Source: Pseudosulfitobacter sp. DSM 107133
GTDB lineage: Bacteria; Pseudomonadota; Alphaproteobacteria; Rhodobacterales; Rhodobacteraceae
Direction: 5' to 3'
Assembly: GCF_022788695.1 (NCBI RefSeq)
Contig: NZ_CP085154.1
Coordinates: 2,356,001-2,420,000, forward strand
DNA: 64,000 nucleotides
This document shows positions 9,113 through 25,648 of this stretch, piece by piece; the first letter of the stretch is position 1; the number at the start of each line of letters is the position of its first letter. The notes beneath the pieces are model-generated. The model saw only the letters and a list, made by a program, of their open reading frames with translations, was not told the DNA's origin and ran no database searches. Both the position numbers and the translations under genes were made by a program.

Positions 9113-9499
9113 ATGGACCCGTTCACCCAGATCACCGCCCAATGGCCCGCACCCGCCCGCGCCCGTTTCGATGCCCTGCGCGCCATCATTCTGTCAGCGG
9201 CAGAGGATGCAAATGTCGGCCCACTCACGGAAACCCTGAAATGGGGCCAGCCGGCCTGGCGTCCTGTTGCGCCGCGCACCGGATCGACACTGCGGCTGAA
9301 CTGGTCGCCCACGGCCCCCCACGCGCTGACCGCCTATGTCGATTGCAAAACCGATCTGGCACAGCGCATGGCCAGCCTGTACCCCGACCTGCCAAATGAC
9401 GGTCGCCGCGCGCTGTCGCTGGCCCTGGACGGCACGCTTGCCGAGCAGCCCCTGTCCCATCTGGCGGCGATGACGTTCACATATCACCGCAAATCCTAG
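9113..9499 (+). CDS. DUF1801 domain-containing protein
   Basis: 128 residues. It matches the DUF1801 (YdhG-like) fold: an N-terminal helix pair (RARFDALRAIILSAAEDA), the LTETLKWGQPAW core motif, a beta segment STLRLNWSP, and a C-terminal helical end. Members are small cytoplasmic proteins without a known reaction. Start ATG at 9113. Its TAG stop (9497-9499) forms the first bases of a palindromic repeat. Downstream is a PilP-like gene on the same strand. Confidence 0.82.
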   Translation: MDPFTQITAQWPAPARARFDALRAIILSAAEDANVGPLTETLKWGQPAWRPVAPRTGSTLRLNWSPTAPHALTAYVDCKTDLAQRMASLYPDLPNDGRRALSLALDGTLAEQPLSHLAAMTFTYHRKS

Positions 9500-10002: not shown

Positions 10003-10056
10003 ACGCCGCACGCGCGCCTCTTGACCTTGGCGCGCATTCAGACCATCACGCAGCCC

Positions 10057-10701
10057 ATGACAAATGCCCCCAAACTTGCCCTGATCACAGGCGCGTCGCG
10101 CGGTCTTGGTGCCGCTTTGGCCGAAGCCTTGGCCCCGACCCATCACATCGTTGCCGTGGCCAAGACCACCGGCGCGCTGGAAGAGCTTGACGACCGGATC
10201 AAGGCGCTTGGCGGCAGTGCCACGCTGGCCCCGATGGACATCACCGTGCCCGAGGCGATGGCCACCCTGTGCCGGGGCATTCACGACCGCTGGGGCAATC
10301 TGGACATCTGGGCGCATACGGCGATCCATGCTGCGCCCCTGACCCCGACCAGCCACATCGACAGCCGCGACATGGCCAAATCGGTTGCCGCCAATGTCAC
10401 CGCCACCGCAACGCTGATCTCCTATGTGGCCCCGCTGCTGGGCACCGACGGCACCGCGCTTTTCTTTGACGATCCGCGCGCAGGCACCAAGTTTTTCGGC
10501 AGCTACGGCGCGACCAAGGCCGCCCAGATCGCACTGGCGCGCAGCTGGCAGACCGAGACCGTCAAAACCGGTCCCCGCGTGGTTATCGCCCGGCCCGAAC
10601 CGATGCCCACAGCCACCCGCGCCCGTTTCTTCCCCGGCGAAGACCGCGCGCCGCTGGCAGACCCGCACGCCGAAGCCGCGCGTATTCTCGCGGCGCTCTA
10701 G
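10057..10701 (+). CDS. SDR family NAD(P)-dependent oxidoreductase
   Basis: 214 residues, a classical short-chain dehydrogenase. The nucleotide-binding TGASRGLG is near residue 11-18, and the active-site Y-x-x-x-K is in SYGATKAA. The substrate is unknown. Start ATG 10057. Its stop codon (TAG, 10699-10701) contains the AG core of the IS110 insertion, so the element landed exactly at the gene end without changing the protein. Confidence 0.88.
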   Translation: MTNAPKLALITGASRGLGAALAEALAPTHHIVAVAKTTGALEELDDRIKALGGSATLAPMDITVPEAMATLCRGIHDRWGNLDIWAHTAIHAAPLTPTSHIDSRDMAKSVAANVTATATLISYVAPLLGTDGTALFFDDPRAGTKFFGSYGATKAAQIALARSWQTETVKTGPRVVIARPEPMPTATRARFFPGEDRAPLADPHAEAARILAAL

Positions 10702-10713
10702 CAACTGTATTTC

Positions 10714-11673
10714 TCAAGCGAGTTGAGTAGTCCATTTCTGCCGACTTTTGCAAAGGGCGTTCACGATTGTCACAAGCTTTCTTGCGACGGCGGTGATTAT
10801 CACTTTGTGTGGTTTTCCGGCTTCGCGAAGGCGGTCTGCGAACGGCTTCAGGACGGGATTGTGGTGACTGGCGACGAGCGCCGCCTGGAACATAACGTGT
10901 CGCAGCGGGCGCCGGCCGCCTCCGATAGCGCGCTTGCCCCGCATCGCGCCGCTGTCATGGGCAATGGGCGCAAGGCCTGTCAGCGCGGCGGCTTGTTCGC
11001 CCGTGATCTGGCCGAGTTCCGGCATTTCAGCGATCAACATCGTGCTGGCGACCGGGCCAATGCCGGGAACTGAACGCAAGATGGCAGCAGTCGTGGCAAG
11101 GCCTTCCTCTGAGGCGATGATCTGTTCGATCCGGACCTCAAGTCCTGCAATCTGGCGATCCAGTAGGTCTTTCAGGTCACCATCCATGACGTCGAACAGA
11201 TCATCCGAACCCAGTTTCGCATGCGCCTTGATTTGCGCCAAAAGCCGTTTGCGTGTTTCGACGAGCTGACCACGCTTGGACACCAAAGCCCTGAGAAGAC
11301 GTATCTTTTCATGCGGCAAGGTCCGCCCTGCATCAGGCCGAAAGGCCATGAACCGCGCGATAAGCTCCGCGTCGATCCTATCCGTTTTCGCCCGCGTGCC
11401 CCGGCTGGCGGCAAAGGCTTTGATTTGCGCGGGCGGCAGTTGCCTGGTCGCGACCCCTGCAACGTCGAGGGCCGACCACAGACGCCATTCCTGCCCCCCT
11501 GTGGCCTCAAAACAAACCAGCGCACAGGCTGACTTTGCCAGGGCGCCCACGCGCGCATGCCCGTCCTCGGAATTGGGCAATCGAAGTCTCTGATTGCTTG
11601 GCAGGCAATGAATGTCCAGCCAATCGCGGCTGACATCTATGCCAAGGATTGCGTCTCGTGTTATCCTGTTCAT
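10714..11673 (-). CDS. IS110 family transposase (DEDD recombinase)
   Basis: 319 residues. The N-terminal RuvC-like domain shows the acidic residues in ILGIDVSRDWLDI, VCFEATGG and TDRIDAELIARF. A coiled-coil middle leads to the C-terminal Tnp domain with VPGIGPVASTMLIAE and the conserved serine in HDSGAMRGKRAI. Start ATG at 11673; the longer frame upstream runs through the bridge-RNA region and is not coding. The protein looks intact. Family members are guided to donor and target by a bridge RNA from the same element. Confidence 0.95.
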   Translation of the reverse strand: MNRITRDAILGIDVSRDWLDIHCLPSNQRLRLPNSEDGHARVGALAKSACALVCFEATGGQEWRLWSALDVAGVATRQLPPAQIKAFAASRGTRAKTDRIDAELIARFMAFRPDAGRTLPHEKIRLLRALVSKRGQLVETRKRLLAQIKAHAKLGSDDLFDVMDGDLKDLLDRQIAGLEVRIEQIIASEEGLATTAAILRSVPGIGPVASTMLIAEMPELGQITGEQAAALTGLAPIAHDSGAMRGKRAIGGGRRPLRHVMFQAALVASHHNPVLKPFADRLREAGKPHKVIITAVARKLVTIVNALCKSRQKWTTQLA

Positions 11674-11675
11674 GT

Positions 11676-11844
11676 TCTCTTCCTTCTGATCCGTGGTCCA
11701 AGCTGGCCACAAGCAACTGTTCGAGATGGATGAAGAGAGACAGTGCTGGCTCGCTAGCAAACGTGGTCCCAATTCAACTTGGGCCACAAGGCTCTGACGC
11801 CATACACCGTCCCGTCAGTGACCTCGGCCAAGGTCGCTGACGGG
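11676..11844 (-). ncRNA. Probable bridge RNA of the IS110 element
   Basis: Read on the minus strand. First comes a 14-pair 5' hairpin (11831-11844 with 11811-11824, one mismatch). Next is a target-binding loop with left guide CAGAGCCT (11789-11796), an inner hairpin (11763-11787) and right guide TTTGCTAG (11754-11761). Last is a donor-binding loop closed by TCTCTTC/GAAGAGA (11732-11738, 11676-11682) with left guide ACAGTTGCT (11712-11720), an inner hairpin (11693-11710) and right guide GATCAGAAG (11683-11691). The donor guides match the element ends (ACAGTTG-CT and CT-TCTG); the target guides partly match the site (CAGACC-CT and CT-AG). Exact 5' and 3' ends are not known. Confidence 0.75.
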
Positions 11845-11871
11845 GGAACAATAACAGATCGGAGATACAGA

Positions 11872-11885
11872 AGGGTCTGGACCCT
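11872..11885. repeat. Palindrome AGGGTCTGGACCCT, remainder of the IS110 target site
   Basis: AGGGTC-TG-GACCCT directly at the element's left end. With the TAG stop of the SDR gene at 10699-10701 it rebuilds TAGGGTCTGGACCCT. The following 11886-12060 holds no gene that I can support. Confidence 0.7.
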
Positions 11886-12060: not shown

Positions 12061-12846
12061 ATGCGTATTCTCATCACCAACGACGACGGCATTGCCGCAC
12101 CGGGGCTGAAAACCCTGCACGCCATTGCCAAACAGGTGGCTGGCCACACCGGCGAGGTCTGGACCGTGGCCCCTGCCTTTGAGCAATCGGGCGTCGGCCA
12201 TTGCATCAGCTACACCCATCCGATGATGATCTCGAAACTGGGCACCCGCCGCTATGCCGCCGAAGGCAGCCCTGCCGATTGCGTGCTGGCGGGCATTCAC
12301 GACGTGATGGCCGACGCGCCTCCCGACCTGATCCTGTCGGGGGTCAACAGGGGCAACAATTCGGCGGAAAATGCGTTGTATTCCGGCACCTTGGGCGGCG
12401 CGATGGAGGGTGCCTTGCAGGGTATTCCCGCCATCGCCCTGTCGCAATATTTCGGCCCCGCCAATGCCACGCTGGAAGACCCGTTCGAGGCCGCCCTTGT
12501 CCACGGTGCCGACACGGTGCGCCGCATTCTTGACGCCACGCCGGCAGACACCGGCGATTACCACCTGTTCTACAACGTCAACTTTCCGCCCGTCGCGGCG
12601 GCAGAGGTCAAAGGCACCCGCCTGAGCCGCCAGGGCCGCCGCCCCGGCGTGCGCTTTTCCACCGAACCGCACGAAGCCCCCTCGGGGCGCAAGTTCGTAT
12701 GGATCAAGGGCGGCAACCAGCAGGTGCACACGGCTGCGGGCACCGATGCTGCTGACAATCTGGACGGCTATATCTCGGTCACGCCGATGCGCGCCGATCT
12801 GACGGCCCATGACGTGATGGACCGTCTCGGGGCGCTGAACGTATGA
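12061..12846 (+). CDS. surE: 5'/3'-nucleotidase SurE
   Basis: Metal-dependent nucleotidase that removes phosphate from nucleoside monophosphates and is linked to stationary-phase survival. 261 residues. The metal ligands are in the opening [15 protein letters not shown] (D8, D9), the conserved serine and SPADCV follow, and [18 protein letters not shown] holds the asparagine ligand. ATG 12061 follows an AAAGGGG ribosome site. Its stop overlaps the pcm start (ATGA). The surE-pcm-nlpD order is the same as in enterobacteria. Confidence 0.96.
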
Positions 12847-20433: not shown

Positions 20434-20448
20434 TAGGGTCAGGACCCA
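20434..20448. repeat. Palindrome TAGGGTCAGGACCCA
   Basis: Copy of the TTAGGGTCAGGACCCTAA family, 11 bases after the WYL regulator stop. Here it is not the stop codon itself. The remaining gap to 20601 carries a TTTTGGC hairpin repeat and no gene. Confidence 0.55.
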
Positions 20449-24599: not shown

Positions 24600-25634
24600 A
24601 TGCGACCACACCACATGCGCAAAACCACCCTTCCGCTGACCCCTGCACATTTTGTGCCCGTTTTTGTTGCCCGGAATTTCACGGCAACGGATGGTGCAAA
24701 TTTGGGCGACGCGCTGTCTTTCGCAGACGAGCTTGAGCTGGACGACACCTATTCGCTCACCCCCGGTGCGCAACCGATACAGCTGGCCATTCAGGTGCTG
24801 GACGAGGGGTTCGAGATTGCCGCCGAAAGCCCCACAGGCACGACAGGGGCCGCGCTGCATCTGGATTGCGCCCTGACGCTGATGTCGCCGGACGGGCAAA
24901 CCACGGACGCCATCGTGGTGGTCGAGACCGACACCAAGGGCAATGTTGCGCAAATCTACCTGCTGCCGCTGGCCAGCCTTGCGCCACGCACCGATTATGC
25001 GCTGGTGGGCATCGACACCACCAATGCCGTCGAGAAATTTGGCGAGGTCGCCTGTGCCCGCTTTACCCGTGGCACCCACATCACGCTGGCGTCGGGCGCG
25101 CAGGTGCCGATTGAGGACCTGGCCGTAGGGGACCGCGTGCTGACCCGTGATGACGGCCCGCAACAGGTGCGCTGGATCGGCCAGTCGACCGTGCGCGCCG
25201 TGGGGGATTTTGCCCCCATCTGCATCCGTGCCGGTGCGCTGAACAACTTTCACGATCTGGTGGTCAGCCCCGACCACCGCCTGTTCATCTATCAACGCTC
25301 GGACCAGTTGGGCGCGGGCCGCTCCGAGCTGCTGGTCAAGGCGCGCCATCTGGTGAACGGCGACACGGTGATCCGCCAGGACGGCGGCTTTGTCGACTAT
25401 TTCCAGCTGCTGTTCGACGCCCACCAGATTATCTATGCCGAAGGGATTGCCGCAGAATCGACGCTGGTCGACACCCGCACCCGCGCCACTGTGCCTGATG
25501 AGGTCACCGCGCAATTGCTGGCCAACGGTGTGGGCGATCACGCCGGCACCGGCCTGTCGGGGCTGGATGTTCAGGAAAACCTGCTGAACCGTCCCGATGC
25601 CGCCGAACTGCTGCGCAAGGCCAGCACACGTTAG
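24600..25634 (+). CDS. Hint-domain protein, second copy
   Basis: 344 residues; ATG 24600 or 24615. The N-terminal half is beta-like and not similar by eye to the protein at 15214. The C-terminal Hint_2 domain (about 150-295) runs from CARFTRGTHITLASGAQVPIEDLAVGDRVLT through VSPDHRLFIY to FDAHQIIYAEGI. The conserved His-containing block is present. Function unknown; probably secreted-protein autoprocessing. The TAG stop is the start of a perfect TTAGGGTCAGGACCCTAA palindrome. Confidence 0.84.
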   Translation: MRPHHMRKTTLPLTPAHFVPVFVARNFTATDGANLGDALSFADELELDDTYSLTPGAQPIQLAIQVLDEGFEIAAESPTGTTGAALHLDCALTLMSPDGQTTDAIVVVETDTKGNVAQIYLLPLASLAPRTDYALVGIDTTNAVEKFGEVACARFTRGTHITLASGAQVPIEDLAVGDRVLTRDDGPQQVRWIGQSTVRAVGDFAPICIRAGALNNFHDLVVSPDHRLFIYQRSDQLGAGRSELLVKARHLVNGDTVIRQDGGFVDYFQLLFDAHQIIYAEGIAAESTLVDTRTRATVPDEVTAQLLANGVGDHAGTGLSGLDVQENLLNRPDAAELLRKASTR

Positions 25635-25648
25635 GGTCAGGACCCTAA
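25631..25648. repeat. Perfect palindrome TTAGGGTCAGGACCCTAA at the Hint stop codon
   Basis: Arms TTAGGGTC and GACCCTAA surround AG. The gene's TAG stop (25632-25634) lies inside it. Best-preserved copy of the family in the window; as RNA it can fold as a 7-pair stem with a CAGG loop. Confidence 0.75.

Follow-up and report, generated by a model that had tools for sequence, protein, structure and literature searches.

Among the closest described systems is IS621 of Escherichia coli, whose target spans 11 nt around a CT core. According to the available passages of two reports (PMC11208160, PMC11208158), its bridge RNA reads the target with the first loop and the donor with the second, and position 4 is mismatched in natural targets. 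The same passages present an extended right guide as a suggestion rather than a requirement, and report a low tolerance for mismatches. IS110-type elements can also be tied to other mobile elements: in the accessible part of PMC11187229, ISEc21 targets part of other ISs, and ISMch6 is naturally redirected. Literature excerpts place IS1383 in the ends of IS1384 and IS4321/IS5075 in Tn21-family ends, likewise terminal repeats of mobile elements. IS4321 and IS5075 are IS1111 members, and IS1111 members mostly carry their RNA at the right end, as far as the excerpts go, unlike the element described here. IS1383 also belongs to IS1111.

The window, a stretch of 64,000 nucleotides from Pseudosulfitobacter sp. 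DSM 107133, carries an element that looks like a well-documented addition to the known IS621 type and no new kind of system. It is, with high probability, an IS110-group insertion sequence whose bridge RNA chooses the target and which was probably active until recently. In the proposed mechanism, the recombinase would form a complex with a bridge RNA that derives from the left end. The second loop of the RNA would recognize the element's own joined ends, ACAGTTG-CT-TCTG, and the first loop the chromosomal 11-mer CCAGA(C/G)C-CT-AG. The circular element would then enter by strand exchange at the shared CT, no base being duplicated. The circular intermediate, the expression of the RNA and the chemical steps of the exchange are proposed by homology with IS621.

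The element has a short-chain-dehydrogenase-like gene (10021-10701) on one side and a surE-like gene (12061-12846) on the other. A sequence-only reading of the window had proposed its edges, and these proved exact, with AG on the forward strand at both; the outside flanks, once joined, give TAGGGTCTGGACCCT (Table 1). There is no target-site duplication besides the shared CT core, which stands at both ends in 14/14 genome copies. Since the core AG at the right end completes the TAG of the dehydrogenase-like gene, the stop of this gene is unchanged with or without the element. The noncoding left end is long, 200 nt upstream of the recombinase start, and the right end is short, 14 nt downstream of the stop. 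The joined ends, ATACAGTTG-CT-TCTGTAT, have an ATA/TAT subterminal repeat; excerpts from the literature report such a repeat surrounding IS110-group donors. A TG-extended candidate promoter at the junction, TTGCTT-17-TATTGT, which other hexamer pairs equal in score, would by homology drive expression of the RNA.

Table 1. Features of the element and its insertion site (window positions)
Feature	Position	Strand	Remarks
Complete IS110-group element	10700..11873	-	1174 bp, both CT core copies included; same extent in 14 genome copies
Interrupted target, right half	10698..10699	-	AG on element strand
Core dinucleotide, right end (CT, element strand)	10700..10701	-	also in TAG stop of gene 10021-10701
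Recombinase gene	10714..11673	-	319 aa + stop; the element's single gene
Noncoding left end with predicted bridge RNA, upstream of recombinase gene	11674..11871	-	fold and 29-sequence consensus
Predicted donor-binding loop and lower stem	11675..11739	-	helices 4 and 5: double changes in 0/8 and 1/5 pairs
Right donor guide CAGAAG	11683..11688	-	complement of left end CT-TCTG
Left donor guide ACAGTTG-CT (ACAGTTGCT)	11712..11720	-	identical to element's right end
Predicted target-binding loop and stem	11740..11810	-	helices 2 and 3: double changes in 4/11 and 0/4 pairs
Right target guide CTAG after TTTG (TTTGCTAG)	11754..11761	-	complement CT-AG(CAAA)
Left target guide CAGAGC + core CT (CAGAGCCT)	11789..11796	-	
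Predicted 5' stem-loop	11811..11844	-	helix 1: double changes in 7/12 pairs; 95.1% of cells paired
Core dinucleotide, left end (CT, element strand)	11872..11873	-	
Interrupted target, left half	11874..11884	-	GGGTCCAGACC on element strand

The recombinase has the Pfam domains PF01548 (DEDD_Tnp_IS110) and PF02371 (Transposase_20), both above their cut-offs, and scores 190.9 bits (cut-off 140) against NCBIfam NF033542, 'IS110 family RNA-guided transposase'. This DEDD RuvC-like domain, together with a Transposase_20 domain bearing the conserved serine, is the domain content by which the IS110 group is defined. By sequence, the protein matches IS621 (PDB 8wt6; E 6.8e-28, residues 10-310) and ISCro4 (PDB 9t56; E 1.2e-27, residues 9-310). 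The catalytic set of IS621 aligns, in the 8wt6 alignment, to D13, E56, D98, D101 and S241. The two recombinases are remote from each other, scoring 101 bits across about 300 residues. Within what the IS621 passages cover, the two systems have in common the IS110 group, an RNA gene in the left end, a 5' stem-loop followed by target and donor loops, the CT core, the 11-nt target and the catalytic D/E/D/D/S. They also share a tolerated natural mismatch between guide and target, and insertion in repeated palindromes. The target differs, CCAGA(C/G)CCTAG here and ATCAGGCCTAC in IS621 as given there, and so do the guides. The whole window had no Rfam match at gathering scores, and literature titles and abstract starts (ISfinder and subscription papers outside the search) held none naming the element or its target.

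The genome (5.21 Mb, 13 contigs) contains 14 full copies with 99-100% identity, in addition to two partial matches. Thirteen copies are 1174 bp long and one is 1173 bp. That the element is a decayed, immobile IS110 remnant, with loops of merely historical interest, is scarcely credible. One copy of the 14, L022, is indeed frameshifted (a one-base deletion, with a stop at codon 167), and cousin elements have left two partial left ends in the genome; against this, the 319-aa frame is intact in 13/14 copies, and the near-identity of all 14 and their clean junctions indicate recent movement. The set of 14 also puts what had been noticed at one locus beyond chance. The cousin left ends lie at about 2000-2150 (L023) and about 1970-2100 (L024); read by eye, they occupy variants of the motif, CTGGACC in L023, whose guide is TTTGACC, and CCTGACC in L024.

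All 14 copies of the mobile element interrupt one 11-mer, CCAGA(C/G)C-CT-AG, in a single orientation. The left flank ends with CCAGACC in 12 copies and CCAGAGC in 2; the right flank opens with AG in 14/14, and the next four bases are variable. Another 32 CCAGA(C/G)CCTAG sites (21 with C, 11 with G) are uninterrupted. Occupancy is thus 14/46, versus 0/58 for CCAGA(C/G)CCTAA (Fisher p 3e-6). It is also nil at 24 sites of CTGGACCCTAG, the opposite arm of the palindrome discussed below (p 0.0015), and at 11 of CCTGACCCTAG (p 0.049). With five of CCGGACCCTAG added, the pooled CTAG variants are occupied in 0/40 cases (p 6e-5). The guides, if read as proposed, predict that CCAGACCCTAG and CCAGAGCCTAG are used as targets and that CCAGACCCTAA and CCTGACCCTAG are not. 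Fourteen near-identical copies and dozens of unoccupied near-targets provide a natural read-out of bridge-RNA specificity within one genome.

The sequence-only reading had described the target as a family of palindromes and its sequence as a repeat that recurs at other places in the window. In the window, only near matches within two mismatches occur, at 9499 (two mismatches) and, as TAGGGTCAGGACCC, at 20434 and 25632 (one each); that at 25632 also fits on the other strand with two mismatches. The exact GGGTCTGGACCC occurs only elsewhere in the genome. The forms at 20434 and 25632 differ from it at the centre, where the guide of the window element reads. These variant palindromes (20434-20447 and 25632-25645) have on the other strand CCTGACCC, which is found in the targets of relatives and not in those of the window element.

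The palindrome claim held in part. An exact arm, GGGTCCAGA(C/G)C, is present at 10/14 copies, and at L013 and L016 one base of the other arm is changed; at L017 and L022 two and three of the five other-arm bases (GGGTC) are changed and the 11-mer is whole. The palindrome itself was tried as the target and rejected, on these broken arms and on the unoccupied opposite arm. Because two copies have the other arm broken, the 11-mer CCAGA(C/G)CCTAG, putatively addressed by the guides, is the better description of the target.

The same copies bear on whether the recombinase protein itself, or the DNA structure of the palindrome, selects the site, the likeness of the guide being incidental. At 12 of the 14 copies the palindrome arm is indeed perfect or has a single mismatch, some of the other arm survives at L017 and L022, and the position-6 mismatch described below shows that the guide is imperfectly read. 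However, the 11-mer is kept in L017 and L022 despite the changes opposite, the 24 opposite arms are without a copy of this element, and the targets of relatives differ along with their guides. Selection by protein or palindrome is accordingly considered very improbable, and selection by the bridge RNA is preferred.

The 200-nt region upstream of the gene folds to -81.8 kcal/mol, against a mean of -63.9 for shuffled sequences (z -3.79; 0/200 shuffles as good). The predicted layout is a 5' hairpin, then the target loop, then the donor loop, as had been read from the sequence, and compensatory changes in relatives bear it out. Twenty-nine of the 33 clade-A sequences introduced below were aligned, omitting L075, L076 and L078 (from the genome of L073) and L099 (odd length). 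The structure counted was the RNAalifold consensus minus columns 1-6/196-201 and 82-84/126-128, with helix 4 added by hand; the predicted pairing of columns 1-6/196-201 presumably represents the donor guide matching the left-end DNA, and no RNA helix.

Comparison of these sequences demonstrated support for the RNA structure. In all, 96.9% of cells are paired, falling to 37-48% in slid-partner controls. Double changes occur in 12/40 pairs, and 84 cells carry them versus 27.0 in shuffles. The 5' stem and the target-loop stem supply this support, together with a single pair in the donor hairpin; among the 29 sequences, helix 3 (target-loop apical stem) and helix 4 (donor-loop lower stem) have no double change, and further pair types show no excess (33 versus 33.9 in shuffles). 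The target-loop apical hairpin is about 12 nt longer in the window element than in most of its relatives, L140 and L171 being similar, and this sets the window element apart in comparison with IS621.

All four guides lie where the sequence-only reading had put them, and both donor-loop guides correspond to the ends of the element (ACAGTTGCT and CAGAAG). All four guides are free of the differences found among the 14 copies. The target guides agree with the 11-mer at 9/11 positions in 12 copies and 10/11 in 2. Position 1 of the left guide is an rU against dG wobble in 14/14 copies. Position 6 is an rG against dG mismatch in the 12 copies with C in the target; this mismatch, already noticed, is real and recurs in relatives. 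In IS621, by the passages available, the mismatch is at position 4 (rG:dT). Sequence thus supports the IS110/IS621 logic ascribed to the element in most respects: recombinase family, catalytic residues, RNA position and fold, donor identity, CT core and the one 11-mer in 14/14 copies.

Handshake guides, as described for IS621, are bases following the right target guide and the right donor guide that pair with donor and target positions 7 (and 6). With their register set by analogy with passages on IS621, both loops have a pair at position 7 (C with G and G with C; 14/14 targets), which is invariant. At position 6 one handshake gives a G-T wobble, and in the other A faces C or G unpaired. The extended right guide suggested in the IS621 passages is without support here: CAAA, which would pair with UUUG at positions 12-15, follows the core AG in only one of the 14 copies (L011), and these positions do not covary among relatives (p about 0.3).

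Relatives of the element numbered 79, of which 63 had at least 150 nt upstream; the clade-A table was drawn from these and held 35 plus the window element. Dropping L069, L127 and L139 (misplaced or non-CT left end) left 33 rows, 32 relatives and the window element. Their left guides match their own flanks at 180/231 positions, versus 168.5 with shuffled flanks (p 5e-5), and positions 10-11 of the right guide match at 50/60 in 30 rows, versus 43.0 (p 0.003); with all 36 rows kept, p is 0.00095 for the left and 0.0021 for the right guide (31 rows), all these p-values being optimistic, as the rows have common ancestry and several belong to a single genome. In L140 both guides have changed (TTTGGAC on the left, a right guide for CTGG) and the target, CATGGAC-CT-GG, differs accordingly, matching at 5/7 left positions and both right positions. 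The sequence-only reading had staked its case on sister loops going with their own targets, and in clade A they do; the donor ends are nearly constant apart from a clear switch, seen by eye, between CAGAAG/CTTCTG and CATAAG/CTTATG. Natural redirection through guide changes between relatives is also described for ISEc21/ISMch6 in the accessible part of PMC11187229, as are an upstream noncoding RNA and a target tied to another mobile element.

A second clade (B; parts of L100-L117 and L123-L141, about 53-63% identity) has the ends CTTATG and the donor guide CATAAG. By eye, its target guides and left flanks could not be brought into the 7-nt register around a CT core, and it was excluded from the guide-target count for this reason.

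A plasmid set extended the comparison and was broadly in agreement. Fifteen of 17 records were used, H22 and H23 being omitted as they cover less than half of the query; guides and flanks were read by eye, and a pattern-based reading agreed in 12/15 and was misplaced for L179-L181. The site is CCTG(A/C)(C/G)C-CT in 15/15, and the corresponding guide has T at position 3 in 14/15. The sites of L169 (position 5) and L172 (position 3, guide C) deviate from what their guides specify. The window guide has A at position 3 and all 14 copies are at A; guides with T are at T in 44/46 rows. This association of guide and target has p 7e-12 when the 14 copies are counted, and 0.06 when the window lineage is counted once. 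At position 11 of the right guide, with the plasmid rows added, C faces G in 21/23 rows, and U faces A in 6 and G in 11 of 17 (p 0.053), a weaker signal that would follow from U pairing with A or forming a wobble with G.

At position 6, with the 15 plasmid copies included, guides with G are at G in 13 rows and at C in 16, and guides with C are at C in 18/18 (p 0.0006; plasmid rows alone, p 0.026). In the genome itself, the G encoded by the guide is not preferred: 2/13 sites with G are occupied versus 12/33 with C (p 0.29). A tentative and rather doubtful reading is that G6 is a tolerant letter, by which G6 elements could land at both C and G targets and C6 elements only at C. If so, the lineage would keep an rG:dG mismatch beside the core that covers both variants found in its host palindrome family. 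That a mismatch at position 6 is recurrent and in use stands in contrast to the low tolerance given in the IS621 passages, and bears on off-target prediction for bridge recombinases.

The insertion locus was matched in 6/60 related genomes other than its own. In five (G002, G003, G004, G005, G008) the upstream gene runs into the surE-like start and the element is absent; the sixth, G024, gave a partial alignment only. The expectation of empty sites in relatives was borne out as to the element but not as to the palindrome: GGGTCNNGACCC is absent from all five loci, with a degenerate TTAGGGTCCCGAAACCC in G004, and the base-exact empty allele GCGCTCTAGGGTCTGGACCC was not found at the matched loci.

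The palindromes form a family, TA-GGGTC(CA)GACCC-TA (C1 of this genome, e.g., L025-L036, L041, L044), and are solitary or stand at the tips of repeats. GGGTCCAGA(C/G) occurs 124 times in the genome, versus 10 for the reversed control. Solitary palindromes with TA on both sides are found at 9/28 single places (L037-L064) among the 100 matches listed. At no fewer than 12 loci (L025-L036; at least this number) the motif is at both tips of a repeat, with tip spacings of 248-249 (7 loci), 293 (1), 334 (3) and 65 (1) bases. These repeats are too short for a transposase gene and are called MITE-like. TTAATGGGTCCAGA, a flank typical of their tips, adjoins 5/14 copies of the element (L012, L014, L018, L020, L021). 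The ISEc21 target, as given in the accessible text, is a coding stretch of IS3 transposases, whereas here it is a palindrome arm, solitary or at MITE-like tips.

IS5-family genes adjoin some relatives of the element: L084, which has two pieces beside it, only one of them passing the NF033580 cut-off, and H9 and H10, where the genes are annotated. Separately, an IS5-family element of the genome (L156-L167) has at least 12 near-identical copies at CTAG, with the ends TAGGTCACATACCC and GTCGGTGACCTA, and several of these copies directly adjoin the palindromes.
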